DNA of 10,440 bases from a bacterium (lineage in GTDB: Bacteria; CAIJMQ01; JAADFP01): contig JALUVB010000082.1 in assembly GCA_027021085.1 (NCBI GenBank), forward strand, positions 1 to 10,440. The letters are read 5' to 3'. This document shows positions 1,088 through 8,433 of the stretch, in pieces. A program made the translations under genes and the position numbers. Within the stretch, counting starts at the first letter, position 1, and each line of letters opens with the position of its first letter. A model generated the notes under the pieces. It was not told where the DNA came from. It was given only the letters and a program-made list of their open reading frames with translations, and did not search any database.

Positions 1088-1244
1088 AGTCTAACGTCTA
1101 TAGTCTATGGTCTATAGTCTTTCCTGCCCCCCTTGCTACTATCTACTCGCTACCCGCTACTTTCTCACCATTTACTGCTCACTGTTCACTGTTCACTATT
1201 TATTGCTTCCCCGGTCTAAAGTCTCAAGCCTATAGTCTAAAACC
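1088..1244. repeat. Degenerate heptanucleotide repeat block A (cadC-cadA spacer)
   Basis: Gene-free spacer DNA with a 7-base period. From 1133 to 1244 sixteen heptads follow each other without indels. They begin with CTAC-type units (CTACTCG, CTACCCG), pass into CACTGTT-type units, then GCTTCCCC, and end in AGTCTAA-type units. A second run of AGTCTAT-type heptads (about 1088-1122) precedes it with a one-base phase shift. The same sub-motifs recur at 5100-5404 and, inverted, at 8212-8372. The block separates cadC from cadA, which are usually close together. It contains no plausible coding frame. Confidence 0.8.
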
Positions 1245-1249
1245 TGCCC

Positions 1250-1603
1250 CTATTCCCTGATATGCTTCAGGCCTTCATTAAACAAGGTAGAGATATGTTC
1301 ATCATCCAGAGAATAAAAGACCATTTTCCCCTCCTTCCTGTACTTGACCAGCCTGGCATTTCTCAATACTCTCAGCTGGTGAGATACTGCAGAGATGCTT
1401 AAATTTAGTAAGTAGGCAATATCGCACACACATAACTCTTCCCTTGAGAGGGCAAATATTATCTTAACGCGGGTAGAATCTGACAATATACTAAAGGTTC
1501 CCGAGAGCCTGTTCGCCTCTTCTTCTTGCAGCATTTGCCGCTTTACAGCTCTAACCTTATCCCTATCCACACACTTGACTTCGCAAATATCTTTCTCTGC
1601 CAT
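1250..1603 (-). CDS. cadC: CadC-type ArsR/SmtB metal-sensing repressor
   Basis: Winged-helix repressor that releases DNA when it binds Cd, Pb or Zn. I chose ATG at 1603 (117 residues), because an AAAGGAGGGGAGG Shine-Dalgarno lies just before it; a longer frame from TTG at 1633 would place that site inside the gene. The alpha3 metal motif ELCVC gives C58 and C60, and DICEVKC gives C7 and C11. These numbers are the same as those known for staphylococcal pI258 CadC. The second, alpha5 zinc-site residues D101, H103, H114 and E117 are also all in place, and the protein stops right after E117. The recognition helix region (SISAVSHQLRVL) and the wing (YRKEGKMVFYSL) are intact. It lies upstream of the cadA-type gene on the same strand and probably controls it and itself through the operator at 1626-1641. 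Confidence 0.93.
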   Translation of the reverse strand: MAEKDICEVKCVDRDKVRAVKRQMLQEEEANRLSGTFSILSDSTRVKIIFALSREELCVCDIAYLLNLSISAVSHQLRVLRNARLVKYRKEGKMVFYSLDDEHISTLFNEGLKHIRE

Positions 1604-1625
1604 ACCTGCCTCCCCTCCTTTACAA

Positions 1626-1672
1626 TTGAACAATTGCTCAAGTATGATATGTCACTCTTCCTCTTTTGTCAA
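1626..1672 (-). promoter_or_regulatory. cadC promoter with ArsR/SmtB-type operator
   Basis: Reading the minus strand, a perfect TTGACA (1672-1667) is followed after exactly 17 bases by TATCAT (1649-1644). A 16-base near-palindrome, TTGAGCAATTGTTCAA (1641-1626), lies just downstream and would cover the transcription start near 1637. Its halves differ at only one symmetric position pair. The TGAnCA-n2-TGnTCA core is what ArsR/SmtB repressors usually bind. A repressor bound here would block polymerase, so autoregulation by CadC is the natural reading. Confidence 0.8.
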
Positions 1673-1690
1673 GGCCAGTGAGTGAGCAGC

Positions 1691-1718
1691 TTGAATTTCT
1701 GATAAAATAAGTGATAAT
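1691..1718 (+). promoter_or_regulatory. Probable dapB operon promoter
   Basis: TTGAAT at 1691-1696, a 16-base spacer and GATAAT at 1713-1718 form a reasonable sigma70 promoter. A start near 1725 would give a leader of about 26 bases containing the GGAGG site of dapB. It is divergent from the cadC promoter, with the two -35 boxes about 20 bases apart. Confidence 0.5.
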
Positions 1719-1750
1719 CATAAGTGGCCAGCAATGGGAAGGAGGAAAAT

Positions 1751-2524
1751 ATGAAAGCAATAATTTCCGGCGCAGGCGGGAGAATGGGAAGAGCGCTTAT
1801 GGAGAGCGCAAAAGACTTTCCGGAAATCGAAGTTGTCGCCCTATGGGAAAAAACAGGCCATCCTGCTCTGGGCAAAAAAATCGGGGGGATTACAGTAAGC
1901 CCGTCCGGGGAAAATATCCCTGAAGCAGAGGTAATCGTGGAATTTACCTCACCCCGGGCAAGCCTGGAACATTTAAGTATTGCCCGGGAAAAGAAGATAA
2001 GCATGGTGATTGGGACAACCGGATTTTCCCCGGCAGAAAGAGAAGAAATTAGAGAAGCAGGCAAAACAATTCCCATCCTCTTCTCCTCCAACATGAGTTT
2101 CGGTATGAATTTGTTGTTCCACATCCTGGAGGAGATAAGCAAAAAACTGCCTCCCGACTACGAGGCAGAAATCGTGGAAATGCACCACCGTCACAAAAAA
2201 GATGCTCCCTCGGGCACTGCCCTTACCCTGGGAGAAATCATTGCTTCTGCCCGGGGAAAAAATCTATCCGAGGTGGCAGTATTCGGGAGAGAAGGGAAAA
2301 CCGGGGAAAGAAACAGGGAAGAGATTGGCATTCACGCCCTAAGGGGAGGAAGCGTAGTAGGAGAACATAGAGTAATATTTGCCACAGAAGGGGAAAGGCT
2401 GGAATTTGTCCATACAGCAGAATCACGCCTCTCCTTTGCCCGGGGAGCCTGGAGAGGAGCACTCTGGCTAACCCACCAGCCACCCGGTTTATATTCCTTC
2501 CGGGATATAATCCTGGAAAAATGA
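1751..2524 (+). CDS. dapB: 4-hydroxy-tetrahydrodipicolinate reductase
   Basis: Cytoplasmic NAD(P)H-dependent reductase of the diaminopimelate/lysine pathway, supplying peptidoglycan and lysine. The protein has 257 residues, close to the family's usual length. The start at 1751 is set by AAGGAGG, which ends about 6 bases upstream. The Rossmann motif GAGGRMG is at residues 7-13. E33 follows the second strand, where a family acidic residue binds the cofactor ribose. VIGTTGF is at 86-92. The signature EMHHRHKKDAPSGTA starts at 143, placing catalytic H145 and K149 as in the E. coli enzyme (H159, K163). The C-terminal tetramerisation part ends normally. Its stop overlaps the next gene's start (ATGA), suggesting translational coupling. 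No other dap gene is visible nearby. Confidence 0.97.
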   Translation: MKAIISGAGGRMGRALMESAKDFPEIEVVALWEKTGHPALGKKIGGITVSPSGENIPEAEVIVEFTSPRASLEHLSIAREKKISMVIGTTGFSPAEREEIREAGKTIPILFSSNMSFGMNLLFHILEEISKKLPPDYEAEIVEMHHRHKKDAPSGTALTLGEIIASARGKNLSEVAVFGREGKTGERNREEIGIHALRGGSVVGEHRVIFATEGERLEFVHTAESRLSFARGAWRGALWLTHQPPGLYSFRDIILEK

Positions 2525-3150
2525 GCAAGTCCCAGGAACCTATCAAAAACTGGCAAGATACGGAGAATATTAGAATCTTTGACCGGGAGATAGAGTACAG
2601 GAAAGTGTATCGCCCGGTTAGGTATCCCCGGCTTGAATTTAAAAGCAGAGATTTAGTGGTCATTCTGCCCAGGGGTTACCGGAAGGAGAAAGAATTACTC
2701 ATCCGGCATCAAAAGTGGATATTTCAAAAGAGTGCCTTTATTGCCCGCGTTTTGAAGAAATCAAAAGAGCTGCACCTTGACTTTTCCACCGATTTAAGTG
2801 AATTCAAGGAGAAATCCTCCTGCATAATAGAGGAGTATGCAGAAGAATTGAAGGTAAAAATAGCTAAAATTACCTTCCGGAAGATGAAGAGCAAATGGGG
2901 TAGCTGCAGAGGAGATGGCCATATTACAGTGAATTCTCTTCTCAGGCTTCTGCCCGAGAAGCTGGTACGGTATATTCTTTTTCACGAGGTGCTCCACCGG
3001 GTGGAAAGAAGGCATAATCAGAAATTCTACGGAATTATAAAAAGCAAGTTCGGAGATATCAAAGCTATGGAGGAAAACTTGCTTGCCTACTGGTTCTTAC
3101 TGGAAAAACATTTTTTTAAAGGCGGAGAAGCCTTCAAAACAACACCATGA
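2521..3150 (+). CDS. YgjP/SprT-like zinc metallopeptidase (M48-related, DUF45)
   Basis: Predicted cytoplasmic zinc peptidase of 209 residues. The family mark KMKSKWGSCR is at 121-130, followed by the zinc site HEVLHRVERRH: H155, E156 (catalytic), H159 and third ligand H165. This spacing is the one known for YgjP-like proteins (HExxHxxxxxH). The N-terminal half has the beta-rich layout of the family, including the LVVILPRG segment at 45-52. No signal peptide or membrane segment is visible. The start codon overlaps the dapB stop (ATGA), and the stop overlaps the next start in the same way (3147-3150), so it is the middle member of a tight operon. The physiological substrate of this family is poorly known; nothing here links it to lysine synthesis. 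Confidence 0.88.
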   Translation: MSKSQEPIKNWQDTENIRIFDREIEYRKVYRPVRYPRLEFKSRDLVVILPRGYRKEKELLIRHQKWIFQKSAFIARVLKKSKELHLDFSTDLSEFKEKSSCIIEEYAEELKVKIAKITFRKMKSKWGSCRGDGHITVNSLLRLLPEKLVRYILFHEVLHRVERRHNQKFYGIIKSKFGDIKAMEENLLAYWFLLEKHFFKGGEAFKTTP

Positions 3151-3483
3151 GCGTTTATCTGGGAATAGATGTAGGCACTTCCAAGCTCTCTGTCTTAGCA
3201 CTGTATGGTAAGAATACTTTACGAGTGTTATAAGAAGATGGGAAAGGAGAGAAGATTCATTATCGGTTCAGGAAATGCCATAAAAAGGAATAAAGTCTTA
3301 CAGGAAATAATACAGCAGACTTTTCAGATGGATTTAAAGTTAAGCCCTTACCAGGAAGAAGCATCTTATGGAGCAGCTTTATTGTCTATGAAAGCAGGCG
3401 GCTATGGAAGGCCAGTAAAAGATGCGAATAAAAGCCAACCTGTCTATTTTTCCGCCCCTGCCTTCTTCTGCCTGGACAGGTAA
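3147..3483 (+). pseudogene. FGGY-family sugar kinase remnant with the central part deleted
   Basis: Two ends of one kinase gene survive. From ATG at 3147 the first frame reads YLGIDVGTSKLSVLAL, the first ATP-binding strand-loop of FGGY kinases, then stops at 3231-3233. A second frame, open from 3205 to 3483, contains the matching C-terminal piece: IIGSGNAIKRNKVLQ, then EEASYGAALLSM (kinases of the sedoheptulokinase/xylulokinase type have a GSGNG...N and EEA.GAAL pattern here). FGGY kinases have about 500 residues; here roughly 350-400 are missing and the two pieces are out of frame by one, joined near 3200-3220. It cannot make an active kinase. It is ATGA-coupled to the metallopeptidase gene, so it was once the third gene of that operon. 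The tail overlaps the convergent nifU gene by 40 bases; the last residues may not be original. Confidence 0.82.
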
Positions 3484-3833
3484 TCTTTTATAGCCGAATG
3501 AAGAGCATCCGCGGCTAAATTTGAACAGTGCATTTTTATGGGCGGTAAACCTTCCAGGGCATCTGCCACATTATTCCTGCTAATTTCCAGCGCTTCCTCT
3601 ATAGTTTTTCCTTTTGCCAGGTCGGTTATCATACTGGAAGTGGCAATAGCCGCCGCACAGCCAAAAGTTTTAAACTTAATATCCTCTATTTTCCCTTCTT
3701 TTACTCTAATCTGGATTTCCATAAGGTCCCCACAGATAGGATTTCCCACCCTTCCTACCCCATCGGGAGATTCAATATTTCCCATATTGTGAGGATTCAT
3801 AAAATGCTCCATTACTTTTTTAGAGTACTGCAT
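3444..3833 (-). CDS. nifU: NifU/IscU-type iron-sulfur cluster assembly scaffold
   Basis: Cytoplasmic scaffold on which [2Fe-2S] clusters are built from cysteine-desulfurase sulfur and passed on. The protein has 129 residues, a single U-type domain without the ferredoxin or Nfu parts of long NifU. The three ligand cysteines are present: C34 in GNPICGDLM (with D36), C59 in TFGCAAAIA and C103 in KMHCSNLA. The HFMNPHNMGNI start is typical. The start at 3833 has GGAG about 11 bases upstream. No cysteine desulfurase (nifS/iscS) is next to it, whereas the pair is often adjacent; the partner must be elsewhere. KMHCSNLAADAL, without the LPPVK.HCS form of IscU, leans to the NifU-like branch of anaerobes. 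It converges on the kinase remnant. Confidence 0.94.
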   Translation of the reverse strand: MQYSKKVMEHFMNPHNMGNIESPDGVGRVGNPICGDLMEIQIRVKEGKIEDIKFKTFGCAAAIATSSMITDLAKGKTIEEALEISRNNVADALEGLPPIKMHCSNLAADALHSAIKDYLSRQKKAGAEK

Positions 3834-3908
3834 GAATAAACTTCTCCTTTTATTTATCTAATTTTAACGGAAGAATTTCTTCTGTTATCCAAAGTTCTAT
3901 CAGGGTAA

Positions 3909-3937
3909 GGTATACCATAAACGAACATATACTGCAA
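3909..3937 (-). promoter_or_regulatory. Possible nifU promoter
   Basis: On the minus strand TTGCAG (3937-3932) and TATACC (3914-3909) are 17 bases apart, giving a leader of about 70 bases. The -10 is only a moderate match, so this is tentative. Confidence 0.35.
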
Positions 3938-3948
3938 GAGGGAAAGTG

Positions 3949-3954
3949 TATAAT
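3949..3954 (+). promoter_or_regulatory. TATAAT -10 box before the epimerase-like gene
   Basis: A perfect TATAAT ends 24 bases before the ATG at 3979. A start near 3961 would give an 18-base leader carrying AAGGAGGT. No good -35 lies 16-18 bases upstream, so the promoter would be weak or need an activator. Confidence 0.4.
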
Positions 3955-3978
3955 AATGGAGAGAAAAGGAGGTGCACA

Positions 3979-5013
3979 ATGATACAGTTTTCCAATCGCG
4001 ATTACCCCAAAAAGGAATTACTGAAAAGAGTAGGAAGGATAGAACAGTTGGCCGGGATTAGACGGGTAAGGCTGGCCGAAGGAAGAGGAGAAGGAATAGA
4101 AATGGCAGAAGTTTACACGGGTTCCGGATTTGCATTTGAAGTTATCCTATCCCGGGGCATGGATATTGGCAGGGCTTCTTACCGGGGAATTCCACTCTCC
4201 TTCCAGGCTTCTCCCGGCCTGGTTCATCCTTCCTATTACGACCCTCGCAAATTTGGCTGGCTGAGAAGTTTCACAGGAGGCCTCTTAGTAACCTGCGGAT
4301 TGACCCACGCTGGAGTGCCCGCAACAGAAGGGAATGAAGAGATAGGTTTACACGGAAGAATATCGCATATACCGGCAGAAATTATCTCACTGCAGCGGGA
4401 ATGGAAAGATGAGAAACTGTATTTAGGAGTAACCGGCGAAGTGAGGGAAAGCAGGATGTTTGGAGAAAATATTGTTTTAAGGAGAAAGATAGGGAGCAGG
4501 GCAGGAGAAAACCGTCTATTCATAGCTGATTCGGTGAGGAACGAAAGTTTCCAGAAAACTCCCCATATAATTCTTTATCACGTAAATATCGGTTTTCCTC
4601 TGATAGATAACGGTTCCTACCTGGAGGCAAATGTCAAAGAATGTACCCCCAGAGATGAAGAAGCAGAAAAAGACAGGGAAAACTTTGACAAATTCAGCTC
4701 TCCTGTCCCGGGTTTCAGAGAAAAATGCTACTTTCTGGACATAGAAGAAAATAGCCAGGGAAAGGCAGAAGTATCTATTGTAAACCCGGGGCTGAAACTT
4801 AAAGTATATCTAATCTATCCCAAAAAAGTCCTGCCGTACTTTGTGGAATGGAAGATGATGGGAGAAGGGAATTACGTGGTAGGAATTGAACCTTCAAATA
4901 CGTTACTATTACCCCGTGAAGAACTGAAGAAAAAAGGATTACTGCCGTATTTAGCTCCCGGAGAGGAAATAAACTACGAACTGGAGATTGGGGTGGAAGA
5001 AATCCCCGCCTGA
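3979..5013 (+). CDS. DUF4432 family, aldose 1-epimerase-like protein
   Basis: Cytoplasmic protein of 344 residues with the beta-sandwich pattern of galactose-mutarotase-like proteins in the DUF4432 group. The start at 3979 is set by AAGGAGGTG five bases upstream; a longer frame from GTG 3946 has no ribosome site. Family marks are SRGMDIG (58-64), WLRSFTGGLLVTCGL (94-108), GLHGRISHIPA (123-133), LYHVNIGFPLIDNG (199-212) and GIEPSN near residue 300. H126 and H201 are candidate active-site residues by analogy with mutarotases. Family knowledge suggests sugar binding or anomer conversion; the true substrate is not known. It stands alone between the divergent nifU gene and a 470-base repeat spacer. 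With the sugar kinase remnant and the GH51 enzyme nearby it suggests carbohydrate use. Confidence 0.88.
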   Translation: MIQFSNRDYPKKELLKRVGRIEQLAGIRRVRLAEGRGEGIEMAEVYTGSGFAFEVILSRGMDIGRASYRGIPLSFQASPGLVHPSYYDPRKFGWLRSFTGGLLVTCGLTHAGVPATEGNEEIGLHGRISHIPAEIISLQREWKDEKLYLGVTGEVRESRMFGENIVLRRKIGSRAGENRLFIADSVRNESFQKTPHIILYHVNIGFPLIDNGSYLEANVKECTPRDEEAEKDRENFDKFSSPVPGFREKCYFLDIEENSQGKAEVSIVNPGLKLKVYLIYPKKVLPYFVEWKMMGEGNYVVGIEPSNTLLLPREELKKKGLLPYLAPGEEINYELEIGVEEIPA

Positions 5014-5099
5014 GAGAGACGCGGGATATAAATTGGCACCTATGCCTCCATGTTAGACTATAGACATTAGACGGGAAAGACACATGATATGGGGGGCCA

Positions 5100-5218
5100 A
5101 CTCACTATTTACTGTTCACTGTTTACTATCTTCCCCTCACTACTAACTACTCGCTACCCGCTACTATTCACCATCTCCCAGTCTAAAGTCTCAGGTCTAT
5201 GGTCTAAGGTCTAAAATC
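5100..5218. repeat. Degenerate heptanucleotide repeat block B1
   Basis: Seventeen heptads in a row without an indel. They start with ACT-ending units (GTTCACT, GTTTACT), pass through a CTTCCCC unit, then units around CTACTCG and CTACCCG, and end with GTC-ending units (TAAAGTC, TATGGTC, TAAGGTC). The same sub-motifs appear in block A but in another order. Just upstream (about 5052-5075) there is a short run of the complementary TAGACTA type in the opposite orientation. The spacer from 5014 to 5406 holds no gene that I can see. Confidence 0.82.
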
Positions 5219-5222
5219 CTGG

Positions 5223-5242
5223 ATACCTGCTTTCGCAGGTAT
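5223..5242. repeat. REP-like palindrome, ATACCTGC-TTTC-GCAGGTAT
   Basis: Perfect 8-base arms around a 4-base loop, followed by GACA. It directly follows heptad block B1. GC-rich hairpins of this form with GGTATGACA are commonly scattered between bacterial genes as REP-type elements. No T-tract follows, so it is not a standard terminator. Confidence 0.6.
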
Positions 5243-5306
5243 GACATGCGCACTGGTTTCTTGTCATTCTTGCAAAAACTATCCCCTTTACCAAGAAACC
5301 AGGATA

Positions 5307-5404
5307 CCAAGTTACCATTAACTGCTTACCGTTTACTGTTCACTATTCACTATTTACTGCTTCCCCAGTCTAACGTCTATTCTCCACTTCTCCACTGCCA
5401 TTCT
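5307..5404. repeat. Degenerate heptanucleotide repeat block B2
   Basis: Fourteen heptads in register, with ACTGTTC and ACTATTC units, then ACTGCTT CCCCAGT, then CTAACGT-type units. The stretch TTTACTGCTTCCCCAGTC (5353-5370) is nearly identical to 1200-1216 in block A and to the reverse complement of 8336-8353 in block C. The block ends two bases before the promoter at 5407. Confidence 0.8.
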
Positions 5405-5406
5405 GT

Positions 5407-5434
5407 TTGACTTTTGCTCTTCTTCTGTTATATT
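5407..5434 (+). promoter_or_regulatory. Probable promoter for the NTase-HAD-ribonuclease run
   Basis: TTGACT (5407-5412), a 16-base spacer and TATATT (5429-5434) make a good sigma70 match. It begins right after heptad block B2 and about 55 bases before the first coding frame. Confidence 0.55.
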
Positions 5435-5451
5435 TAAAGCAGAAGATATAG

Positions 5452-5472
5452 ACGGGTAAAGACATTTCCCGT
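5452..5472 (+). other. Leader hairpin before the NTase frame
   Basis: ACGGG/CCCGT outer stem plus AAA/TTT inner stem with a one-base bulge and a GACA loop. It lies between the predicted promoter and the TTG start at 5488. It may affect translation or RNA stability. A similar string (TAGACGGGAAAGACA) occurs near 5069 without the right arm. Confidence 0.35.
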
Positions 5473-5487
5473 AGAGAGAGTGAAATA

Positions 5488-5883
5488 TTGAGGAAGATAA
5501 TAGATATTTTGAAAAAGGAGCTTGACCCCGACAGGATTATACTTTTTGGTTCCAGGGCAAAAGAAAGATTTCATAAAAATTCTGACTTTGATATAGCCAT
5601 AGACAAAGAAGAAGTTGATATAAGAAAACGGCGGGAAATAACAGAAGAAATAGAGAAAGCACTAAGAGAAGGAGCAGAAGAAGCTAAAGATGAACTGGAC
5701 AAAGATGGTGTAATTCAAAGATTTGAATTTACATTTGAATTGCTATGGAAAGCCCTGAAAATCTATCTTGCATACAATGGAACTGAAGTTAAAACTCCCA
5801 GAGAGAGCTTAAAAGAAGCTTTTAGAATTAATTTATTTGATGAAGAGGAAATATTTCTGCAGCGTTTCTCTACTCAAAGATAA
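5488..5883 (+). CDS. Truncated MNT-type nucleotidyltransferase fused to a HEPN (HI0074-like) fragment
   Basis: 131 residues from TTG 5488; no ATG and only a weak GAGAG ribosome site precede it, and an in-frame stop lies at 5449. Residues 1-58 are the front of a minimal nucleotidyltransferase: ILFGSRA at 18-24 (G21, S22) and SDFDIAID at 32-39 (D33, D35). The half carrying the third catalytic carboxylate is missing. From about residue 60 it reads like the HI0074-type HEPN partner: DGVIQRFEFTFELLWKAL (73-90) and TPRESLKEAF (103-112). The usual following helix with the RN..SH motif is absent and the frame ends in RFSTQR. These two proteins are normally separate adjacent genes, the MNT-HEPN toxin-antitoxin type. 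The layout suggests that an internal deletion joined them and a second one cut the HEPN end. Probably inactive; whether it is translated is open. Confidence 0.6.
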   Translation: MRKIIDILKKELDPDRIILFGSRAKERFHKNSDFDIAIDKEEVDIRKRREITEEIEKALREGAEEAKDELDKDGVIQRFEFTFELLWKALKIYLAYNGTEVKTPRESLKEAFRINLFDEEEIFLQRFSTQR

Positions 5884-5884
5884 T

Positions 5885-6751
5885 ATGTGTTTGCAGTTAG
5901 AAAAACCTAAGGGCCCCTTCCTTGCCAGGCAAGATATCAAGCTGATAGCCCTTGACCTGGACGGCACATTGTTTGACGACCAGGGGAATATACCGGAAGA
6001 AAACGTAAAAGTATTACAGGCCCTGGCAGAAAACAACACAATTATTGCCCTATCTTCGGGCAGAATGACTGACTGCGTCGCACCTGCAGGAGAGATTATG
6101 GGTATTGACTGCCCTCTTATTGTTTACAACGGAGCCATGGTAAGAGCAAGAAAGAGAGAAAACAGAGAAATTATTTACCATAATCCACTGCCTCCTGAAT
6201 ACGGGGATATGCTAATAGACTACTCCCTCCAGCATAGGTTCCATCTAAACTACTACTTAAACGACACCCTCTATGCCCAGGAAGATAAATACTTGCGGAA
6301 ATATGCCCTGATTTACTCCCGCCAGACCGGGGCCACTTTCCATTTCTTAAAGGACCTGAGAAAGCTTAAAGGTAATGCACCCACTAAATTAATCCTCATC
6401 ACAGATACTGCCCATGAAGATATATCCCGCACGCGAGACTTCCAGTACGAGCATTTTATGCGGAAACTGGGAGAGAAAATAAACCTGGTTAAAACCAACC
6501 CGGAGTACCTGGAATTTCTGAATAAAGGGGCAGATAAGGGAATCGGGCTCCAGAAAATATCCGAATTCTACGGGATTAGCCGGGAAAATATCATTGCTTT
6601 CGGTGATGGGGAAAACGATATTGAAATGCTGGAATTTGCCGGCATTGGTGTGGCTTTATCAAATGCAAAGGAAAAAGTTAAAAAAATAGCCGATGTAGTC
6701 CTGGACTGGGATAACAACCAGGCAGGCGTGGCAAGGTTTCTTTCCAGATGA
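5885..6751 (+). CDS. Cof-type HAD-IIB family phosphatase
   Basis: Cytoplasmic phosphatase of 288 residues, likely acting on sugar phosphates or similar small metabolites. The HAD motifs are complete: D24 and D26 in IALDLDGTL (nucleophile and acid/base), SSGR at 57-60 (motif II), K218 in NKGADKG (motif III) and GDGENDIEML at 240-249 (D241, D245, Mg binding). A C2B cap lies between about 85 and 205. The start is uncertain: ATG 5885 adds 18 residues before the usual first strand and has no clear ribosome site, and the same frame stays open to ATG 5837. The deletion that cut the upstream HEPN fragment may also have replaced the original start. Its stop overlaps the next ATG (6748-6751), so it is coupled to the ribonuclease gene. 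Substrate unknown. Confidence 0.9.
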   Translation: MCLQLEKPKGPFLARQDIKLIALDLDGTLFDDQGNIPEENVKVLQALAENNTIIALSSGRMTDCVAPAGEIMGIDCPLIVYNGAMVRARKRENREIIYHNPLPPEYGDMLIDYSLQHRFHLNYYLNDTLYAQEDKYLRKYALIYSRQTGATFHFLKDLRKLKGNAPTKLILITDTAHEDISRTRDFQYEHFMRKLGEKINLVKTNPEYLEFLNKGADKGIGLQKISEFYGISRENIIAFGDGENDIEMLEFAGIGVALSNAKEKVKKIADVVLDWDNNQAGVARFLSR

Positions 6752-8145
6752 AAATTAAATTTCTCGGGGCAAGCCAGAACGTTACCGGCTCAAGATTTCT
6801 ATTGGAAAACGAAAATTGCCGGGTTTTAATCGACTGCGGTTTATTCCAGGAGAGAGCTTTCCGCTTTCGCAACTGGGAAGATTTTCCCGTGCCTCCCTCC
6901 AGCATAAACGCAGTAATCCTAACCCATGCCCACCTTGACCACTGCGGATACCTGCCAAAACTGGTGCGCGAAGGCTTCAGGGGCAATATTTTTTGCACTC
7001 CTCCCAGCATGGAGATTGCTAAAATAGTCCTCTTAGATTCTGCCAAATTGCAGGAAGAGGATGCCGCATTCAAAAAGAAAAGGCATGAAAAAGAAGGAAG
7101 AAGGGGGCACTACCCGGAGGTTCCACTCTACACTATCGAAGATGCCCGCAATGTCTTTCCCCATTTTGCCACTTTCCCATACGGCAGAGAATTCGAGATT
7201 ACTCCGGAGATAAAAGCCACCTTTCACGATGCAGGCCACATTTTAGGCTCTGCGATGATTGAAATAAAAGTGAAAGGCAAGGAAAAGGAAAAAACCATAA
7301 TCTTTTCAGGAGATATAGGGAGATGGGATAAACCGGTTCTATGCAACCCCACAACTTTCCGGGAAGCAGACTACGTGGTCATGGAATCCACCTACGGGAA
7401 CAGGTTGCACGAAGAACAGGAAGTCTCCAGAGAAAAACTCCAGGAGGTAATAGTAGAGACCAAAAAAAGGGGAGGAAACGTAGTGGTCCCCACCTTTGCC
7501 ATCGAAAGAACGCAGGAATTACTCTACTACTTGAGCGAACTTTTACGAGAGGATAAAATCCCCCACCTGCTGGTTTTCCTGGACAGCCCCATGGCCATAG
7601 ATGTAACTGCAGTCTTTAGAAAACATGCAGGATACCTTAACCCAGAAACCAAGGTTTTCCTGGACAGTAAGGAATCTCCCTTCAACTTTTCACTCCTTAA
7701 ATTAACCCGCTCAACAGAAGAATCGAAAGCAATAAACCATATAAAAGGCACTTCCATTATCATGGCTGGCTCGGGCATGTGTACAGGAGGAAGAGTAAAA
7801 CACCACCTTCGCAACAACATTACCAGGCCGGAAAGCACGGTATTGTTTGTGGGATACCAGGCAAAGGGAACACTGGGAAGAGAAATCCTGGAAAAGAAGG
7901 AAAAAGTGAGAATTCACGGAGAGATTTACCCCGTGCTGGCCAGGATAGAAAAGATAAATGGGTTTTCTGCCCATGCAGATAAAGATGAGCTCTTAAAATG
8001 GGCAGCAAGCTTTAAAAATACCCCGGGGAAAATATTCGTGGTGCACGGGGAAGAAGAGGCCTCGCAGGATTTTGCCCAGCTTCTGAAAGAAAAGCTCAAA
8101 AGTGCCACGGTTGTCCCCGAATACTTAGAGGAAGTTCCTCTCTGA
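6748..8145 (+). CDS. Beta-CASP metallo-beta-lactamase ribonuclease (CPSF73/YSH1-like)
   Basis: Cytoplasmic zinc-dependent nuclease of 465 residues, at the usual length. The metallo-beta-lactamase part has THAHLDH (H60, H62, D64, H65), AGHILGSA with H164 and FSGDIGR with D189. The inserted beta-CASP domain runs from about 210 to 390, with ESTYGNR, VVPTFAIERTQELL, FLDSPMA and MAGSGMCTGGR. The C-terminal part returns to the first fold with the RNA-specificity motif GFSAHAD (H409) and VVHGE (H433). All zinc-site residues are present. Family members process or degrade RNA as endo- and 5'-exonucleases; no KH domain is present. The ATG overlaps the HAD stop. Nothing shows a link between the two substrates, so the pairing may be chance or strain-specific. 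Confidence 0.94.
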   Translation: MKIKFLGASQNVTGSRFLLENENCRVLIDCGLFQERAFRFRNWEDFPVPPSSINAVILTHAHLDHCGYLPKLVREGFRGNIFCTPPSMEIAKIVLLDSAKLQEEDAAFKKKRHEKEGRRGHYPEVPLYTIEDARNVFPHFATFPYGREFEITPEIKATFHDAGHILGSAMIEIKVKGKEKEKTIIFSGDIGRWDKPVLCNPTTFREADYVVMESTYGNRLHEEQEVSREKLQEVIVETKKRGGNVVVPTFAIERTQELLYYLSELLREDKIPHLLVFLDSPMAIDVTAVFRKHAGYLNPETKVFLDSKESPFNFSLLKLTRSTEESKAINHIKGTSIIMAGSGMCTGGRVKHHLRNNITRPESTVLFVGYQAKGTLGREILEKKEKVRIHGEIYPVLARIEKINGFSAHADKDELLKWAASFKNTPGKIFVVHGEEEASQDFAQLLKEKLKSATVVPEYLEEVPL

Positions 8146-8211
8146 CCAGCCCCACCTTCTCAGGCTTTAGACTTTAACGCCATGTGCGACTTTTCTTTTG
8201 AATGACGGATA

Positions 8212-8372
8212 ATTAGTAGCGAGTAGCGGGTAGCGAGGGAAGATGCAGGATGTAGGCGGAGTGAGAGGTGGAACTCACAACTAAGAACTGGTGACTCACA
8301 ACTCTTGGACTTTAGACTGTAGACCATAGACTGGAGACTGGGGAAGCAGTGAACAGTGAAGAGTGAATAGGG
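8212..8372. repeat. Degenerate heptanucleotide repeat block C (inverted relative to A and B)
   Basis: Twenty-three heptads in register, purine-rich on the plus strand: GCGAGTA and GCGGGTA, then TCACAAC/TAAGAAC-type units, then CTTTAGA, CTGTAGA and CCATAGA, then AGCAGTG, AACAGTG and AAGAGTG. Read on the minus strand it has the CACTGTT, GCTTCCCC, AGTCTA and CTACCCGCTAC modules of blocks A and B. The 7-base register continues with weaker likeness to about 8414. The spacer 8146-8563 holds no gene that I can see; a short GGCTTTAGACTTTAACGCC piece at 8163-8181 belongs to the same sequence family. Confidence 0.82.
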
Positions 8373-8415: not shown

Positions 8416-8433
8416 CCCCGATATAAATCGGGG
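8416..8433. repeat. Short palindrome, CCCCGAT-ATAA-ATCGGGG
   Basis: Perfect 7-base arms around a 4-base loop, about 40 bases beyond heptad block C. It shares the CCGAT/ATCGG core with the palindrome at 1040-1053. No T-tract follows on either strand; a REP-type role is more likely than termination. Confidence 0.55.

Follow-up and report, generated by a model that had tools for sequence, protein, structure and literature searches.

Intergenic heptad arrays with unlike neighbours in the mosaic repeats of an uncultured bacterial lineage

The window analysed here, the whole 10,440-nt contig JALUVB010000082.1 (assembly GCA_027021085.1, GTDB lineage CAIJMQ01; JAADFP01), belongs, as contig C82, to a 1.93 Mb genome in 307 contigs, and three of its spacers carry arrays of 7-bp units, or heptads. 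Their periodicity, first reported in a sequence-only reading made from the letters and their open reading frames (ORFs), is confirmed, and within the arrays adjacent heptads avoid being identical, an avoidance that is graded with similarity. Modules of this kind are dispersed over many spacers of the genome, one of them (module E) multiplies as a near-fixed block, and spacers differ within the genus. In our view, with a probability of roughly 0.55, the arrays are non-coding intergenic mosaic repeats similar to Neisseria intergenic mosaic elements (NIMEs) and bacterial interspersed mosaic elements (BIMEs), which spread by the copying of whole modules and lose units by similarity-dependent deletion.

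When the arrays are listed side by side, four classes of heptad can be told apart: class C, GTCTAHR (GTCTA followed by H and R); class A, YACTRYT; class B, CTACYNN (CTAC, Y and two more bases); and class D, KAGTTRY. Between the classes stand short C-rich linkers such as CTTCCCCA and TCTCCCA, so that the gradual drift from word to word seen by the sequence-only reading is replaced by a succession of discrete classes. Module E consists of ATCATGTGTCTTTCCC GTCTAAT GTCTAAA GTCTGAT GTCTATA GTCTAAC ATGGGGG. The features of the window are these:

1088-1120, plus strand: class C heptads (GTCTAAC GTCTATA GTCTATG GTCTATA ...) after TCTCCCA, from Tandem Repeats Finder (TRF); flank and words recur at more than 100 other sites.
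1135-1162, plus strand: class B heptads (CTACTAT CTACTCG CTACCCG CTACTTT), from TRF, the array listing and link matches.
1170-1207, plus strand: class A heptads (YACTRYT), from the array listing, which enters 1173-1200 of C82.
1214-1244, plus strand: second class C block (GGTCTAAAGTCTCAAGCCTATAGTCTAAAA), from the lag-7 test and the array listing.
5053-5090, minus strand: shortened copy of module E with three of the usual five units (GTCTAAT GTCTATA GTCTAAC after ATCATGTGTCTTTCCC), one of about 25 near-identical copies in the genome, inverted relative to the A-B-C arrays downstream.
5100-5130, plus strand: class A heptads, from the lag-7 test and the array listing.
5136-5166, plus strand: class B heptads, from TRF and the array listing.
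5178-5215, plus strand: class C, five units (GTCTAAA GTCTCAG GTCTATG GTCTAAG GTCTAAA) ending in ATCCTGG, from the flank-anchored class C sets.
5223-5242, no strand: dRS3-like palindrome ATACCTGCTTTCGCAGGTAT, adjoining the class C array.
5307-5361, plus strand: class A heptads (TTACCAT ... TTACTGC), from the lag-7 test and the array listing.
5367-5380, plus strand: short class C remnant (AGTCTAACGTCTAT), beyond which the period fades (last links 2 and 1 of 7 matches).
8215-8238, minus strand: class B heptads (TAGCGAG TAGCGGG TAGCGAG on the plus strand), from TRF and the array listing.
8271-8308, minus strand: class D heptads (AACTCAC AACTAAG AACTGGTG ACTCACAACTCTTGG on the plus strand), from the array listing.
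8309-8342, minus strand: class C heptads (GACTTTA GACTGTA GACCATA GACTGGA on the plus strand), from pattern matches and the array listing.
8346-8369, minus strand: class A heptads (CAGTGAA CAGTGAA GAGTGAA TAG on the plus strand), from TRF and the array listing.
8417-8432, no strand: palindrome CCCGATATAAATCGGG, the second palindrome type of the mosaics, with 44 relatives in a 651 kb sample.

Three of these features had no separate entry in the sequence-only reading: the class C array that starts the list (1088-1120), the inverted copy of module E (5053-5090) and the dRS3-like palindrome (5223-5242). Against a mean of about 0.28 in dinucleotide shuffles, lag-7 identity is 0.59 at 1133-1244 (z = 7.1), 0.63 at 5100-5218 (z = 7.8), 0.53 at 5307-5404 (z = 5.0) and 0.59 at 8212-8372 (z = 8.9), and the peak thus stands above shuffles in all four stretches. 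A control spacer at 3834-3978 is without lag-7 signal (z -0.2, dinucleotide shuffles), and over the entire window the top sliding-window values all lie inside spacers that had already been named. The counts of 16, 17, 14 and 23 units given for the four stretches are correct. The accompanying claim, that each run keeps one register with no indel, holds for these counts and fails for homology across changes of word class, where the shared register is a matter of arithmetic because 11 of the 66 successive links have two or fewer matches in seven. A single fixed global register was also considered and rejected, as class junctions fall in several phases; A-to-C junction gaps genome-wide measure 13, 12 and 14 bases in 28, 19 and 6 cases.

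The arrays are by no means confined to the window. In about 195 kb of unmasked sampled contigs some 48 segments have a period of 7, compared with about 5 in shuffles. Period 14 peaks correspondingly, and no other period in the range 4-15 comes close; three sampled contigs that were fully masked each added one spurious segment at every period. The pattern AGTCTANNGTCTANNGTCTA (GTCTANN three times, up to two mismatches) has 539 matches in the 1.93 Mb genome and its reversed form has none, so that the arrays are indeed present in other spacers. Most are four to five units long, 135 of 144 lie outside ORFs, and by rough arithmetic on the ~195 kb sample they make up about 2% of the sequence and one fifth of non-ORF DNA.

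Each class combines a core of 4-5 bases with a variable block of 2-3 positions. Constancy, scored on a unit between two intact neighbours with no demand on its own core, is mostly 92-100% at the core positions, and the other two or three positions are split among 2-3 bases. In class C arrays anchored on their upstream flank, the cores are 94-100% constant in units 1-4, compared with 38-72% at the variable positions. In single arrays with two to four variable columns, all such columns adjoin one another in 49 of 80 cases (19.6 expected); the same-genus genome G001 gives 14 of 27 (6.5 expected), and other phyla only 20 of 56 (13.7 expected). A pooled set of palindrome-anchored arrays of all classes, in which core and variable difference were both ~0.67, mixed orientations and classes and was not used. 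That class C lacks G at position 6 agrees with an extreme general scarcity of CTAG: in the 651 kb sample, window included, this tetranucleotide is about 47-fold under-represented, with 53 occurrences where base composition predicts 2505, which points to strong selection, or a repair or restriction system, against CTAG.

The relation between neighbours in these arrays was unexpected. Identical adjacent pairs number 17 of 307 in class C (50 expected), 18 in class A (48 expected) and 5 in class B (24.6 expected), where the expectation comes from shuffles that keep unit frequencies at each array position, unit preferences within arrays being position-specific; none of 2000 such shuffles reached the class C value. 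The effect is graded: at a distance of one unit, observed over expected is 0.33, 0.92, 1.27 and 1.32 for pairs with 0, 1, 2 and at least 3 mismatches, and exclusion is weak at two units apart and gone at three. Adjacent units resemble each other less than chance predicts, and also less than units at a distance of two or three do. G001 yields 0.38, 0.78, 1.34 and 1.31 for the same steps, with 15 identical pairs against 39.5 expected. In the window alone, just one of the 66 links joins identical units. After related arrays were pruned to a shared block of at most 2, observed over expected was 0.41-0.47 (z -4.2 and -3.3).

Other phyla show the opposite trend. There, 397 of 562 adjacent pairs in GTCTANN arrays are identical, a level biased upward by selection with a 5-unit exact pattern, although the direction is clear; GTCTANR words form perfect arrays in many of these phyla, and partial alternation, with lag-14 identity above lag-7, occurs at a few Bacteroidales, Elusimicrobia and Omnitrophota loci. 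The rumen Prevotella genomes G076 and G077, from an unrelated phylum, arrange GTCTANN heptads in 21-bp and 14-bp higher-order repeats (GTCTAAAGTCTATAGTCTACC repeated, for example), with the same core and variable positions as the GTCTANN heptads of the genome studied here. We found no report of neighbour exclusion in the literature searched, which left subscription journals mostly outside and is not proof of novelty; the rule appears to be undescribed.

The heptads keep company with palindromes. Of the form CTGGATGCCTGCTTTCGCAGG (up to five mismatches) there are 78 in the window's own genome, and in 52 of them the 28 nt immediately upstream are 7-periodic, whatever the class and the orientation. 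Within the 651 kb sample, the dRS3 pattern ATTCCC(N8)GGGAAT occurs in 12 exact copies, and its relaxed form ATNCCY N8 RGGNAT in 72, of which 57 are paired at the free position; among copies of ATNCCYGC-N4-GCRGGNAT, the free N is paired as well in 52 of 56, against about 14 expected by chance. Short palindromes of this dRS3-like kind, together with CCCGA..TCGGG, alternate with the heptad modules in a loosely fixed order.

The distinct, nearly identical copies of module E share sharp block limits, and the block is about 80-110 bp long; upstream of it lie reversed class A and often class B arrays of variable unit content. Three of the 25 copies, that of the window included, lack one or two units and none has gained any. 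The change rates in core, variable and flank positions are 1.9%, 3.9% and 3.0%, which gives no clear sign of core selection after copying, and recent hypermutation of positions 6-7 everywhere is rejected on the same rates. A 225 kb sample of G001 has no copy of module E.

These observations are what a deletion model predicts: arrays that are short and whose neighbours differ, traceable copies that lose units and gain none, and a graded exclusion limited in distance. New arrays would arise by the copying of modules, or by recombination between spacers, rather than by tandem duplication of units, and the route could have been replication or recombination acting where palindromes or shared cores occur. 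Later deletion dependent on similarity would then remove adjacent units that are too alike, leaving short arrays (3-6 units) of unlike neighbours. Several points weigh against this explanation. Neutral deletion fails to account for cores that are so constant in units 1-4 beside variable positions; the strictest pruning of related arrays (shared block of at most 1) keeps the ratio similar but loses power (z -1.4 and -1.8); and a dRS3-like palindrome lies within 40 nt after only 17 of 103 class C runs. Moreover, the analysis found neither a clean empty site that carries a target duplication nor a mobilising enzyme linked to the heptads. The constant core may reflect recognition by a protein stepping 7 bp, or may serve as an anchor for recombination between dispersed arrays.

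A RAYT-like gene is present on contig C45 (L069, 626-1303), beside a helicase-like gene and near three TTACACCCCGGGGGTGTAA-type palindromes. Flanked as it is by a palindrome different from those of the heptads, it was rejected as their mover and is apparently part of a separate repetitive extragenic palindrome (REP) system. A second, shorter Y1_Tnp match lies on contig C298; the palindrome comparison covered the C45 gene.

The sequence-only reading had offered two causes for the fixed spacing, growth by slippage and a helical-phase constraint such as a protein stepping along the DNA, and the layout of core and free bases does suit a protein with a 7-bp step. It is possible, if unlikely, that the arrays are multi-site binding arrays, in which a small protein, like the omega (ParB) protein of pSM19035, would recognise a 4-5 bp core at each 7-bp step and polymerise along the DNA, the two or three uncontacted bases varying and being kept unlike so as to avoid loss by slippage. 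The contiguous core, its constancy in units 1-4 and the contiguous variable block would all be explained, and the usual four to five units come near the minimum of four contiguous heptads of the omega protein (PMC9499535). However, four different cores would be required, the arrays have neither a fixed orientation to genes nor positional conservation between species, and in module E the mutation rate of the cores is close to that of the flanks (1.9% and 3.0%). Omega_Repress (PF07764) had no match in the genome, but control genomes were equally without a match, so that this negative does not show absence.

More speculative, and in our judgement rather improbable, is an active system that maintains the periodic cores and diversifies the bases between them, so that a rule of constant core and unlike neighbour would operate in this genus. 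It could be a DNA-binding protein with a 7-bp step or a dedicated process of repeat writing or recombination, and, if real, would make this a kind of chromosomal repeat array that is undescribed.

Heptanucleotide repeats grown by slippage and then decayed by point mutation are a poor candidate, even though heptanucleotides are reported to be the most abundant long simple repeats in most of the bacterial genomes surveyed and, as that survey is cited by a later paper, are ascribed to slippage (Mrazek 2007 via PMC4679880), and even though GTCTANR words do build perfect arrays elsewhere. Slippage makes neighbours alike, and here their likeness falls below chance and below that of more distant units (two or three apart); decay should strike cores and variable positions equally, which is not what is observed. 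Growth by slippage is not supported because adjacent identical heptads are depleted three-fold and the traceable copies of module E show losses of units and no gains. We regard it as similarly improbable that neighbour exclusion reflects shared ancestry only, all arrays descending from a small number of modules in which neighbours differed by accident. The position-specific unit preferences would agree with such an origin, and module E shows that fixed blocks spread, but the effect survives position-specific frequencies, is found in three word classes and in two species with non-orthologous arrays, persists after pruning of related runs and is graded with similarity.

Very improbable, lastly, is a role as regulatory RNA or in the termination of transcription, whether through rut-like strands rich in pyrimidines or through long hairpins of opposed arrays, for although one strand is C/T-rich and G-poor and opposed GTCTA/TAGAC arrays can pair (fold of window 5053-5215), the pyrimidine-rich strand is sense in 21 and antisense in 37 cases among co-directional genes and the folds are no better than shuffles (z -0.75 to +1.9). 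Regulation of neighbouring genes in general is disfavoured by the lack of a fixed orientation, of conserved positions and of an RNA fold.

Among known systems, NIMEs come close: in these, palindromes of about 20 bp, ATTCCC(N8)GGGAAT, alternate with repeat modules of 30-160 bp in intergenic arrays of hundreds of bp (PMC3898611). The genome studied here has palindromes of this pattern in many copies, and they likewise alternate with repeat modules, but the modules are heptad arrays of unlike neighbours; the NIME palindrome is the target of a filamentous phage integrase, and the dRS3-like palindrome here need not be homologous to the neisserial one. With BIMEs and REPs the arrays share spacer mosaics of palindromes and linkers in many copies, and a RAYT-like gene in the genome. 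They differ in that this gene is not flanked by the heptad-linked palindrome and in that heptads are not general REP linkers.

Tandem 7-bp units that are intergenic and genome-wide are also a property of the short tandemly repeated repetitive (STRR) sequences of heterocystous cyanobacteria and of heptanucleotide long simple sequence repeats (LSSRs), such as GGGANTN in Xanthomonas, TAACTGA in Beggiatoaceae and GGGACCG in Geobacter, which also carries four-heptad elements (PMC2700814). What sets the present arrays apart is that adjacent units avoid identity and that four word classes share one mosaic. It had been stated in the sequence-only reading that STRR units are near-identical copies, which is not always so: mixed or heterogeneous heptamers have been reported from Microcystis (PMC4679880) and Xanthomonas (PMC4692102), and for the heterogeneous heptads of Xanthomonas and Nostoc G-quadruplexes have been proposed (PMC4692102). 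The parS sites of pSM19035, where omega/ParB needs at least four contiguous WATCACW heptads, resemble the arrays in their contiguous 7-bp units (at least four), conserved core (5 bp in parS), variable ends and few units per array (PMC9499535), but are plasmid-borne with a single core, compared with four here. A composite-array query against plasmids had no match.

The preference of bacterial genomes for 7-bp repeats is an old open question whose usual answer is polymerase slippage. The arrays described here keep a 7-bp period with no mark of slippage, show in an uncultured lineage of bacteria a link between heptads and palindromic mosaics of the dRS3/NIME type, and provide a quantitative neighbour rule open to testing wherever a genome has heptad arrays. 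Their turnover between close species is, in addition, fast enough for the process to be watched. G001, at ~85% DNA identity, uses the same vocabulary in fewer arrays, and arrays are absent or nearly so from G002 (same family, 64% complete) and from G003-G006 (same class). Orthologous spacers of the window's genome and G001 hold different mosaics, or a full array in one and a short array-free spacer in the other (861 and 147 bp, or 344 and 95 bp, for example), and the elements of these two same-genus genomes therefore turn over faster than coding DNA diverges. G001 spacers at L253 and L256 carry another 7-periodic vocabulary (AAACTCTAAACAACAAACTC..., TTTAGGATTTTGAGTTT...) that is not seen in the window, and the word classes seem to differ between species.

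Where the window (compared over 5034-6668) carries the nucleotidyltransferase gene and the greater part of the HAD gene, contig C8 of G001 has a 318-bp stretch; the segment is an indel between the two species. The 131-aa ORF at 5488-5883 (plus strand) joins, in one frame, a nucleotidyltransferase (NTase) domain and a truncated NTase substrate-binding (HepT-like) domain, and resembles an MNT/HEPN pair of two genes that a deletion has fused. At 3147-3483, also on the plus strand, lies a remnant of what by eye seems to be an FGGY-type sugar kinase: its start resembles MSVYLGIDVGTSKLS, its C-terminal part follows at a distance, and the middle is missing.

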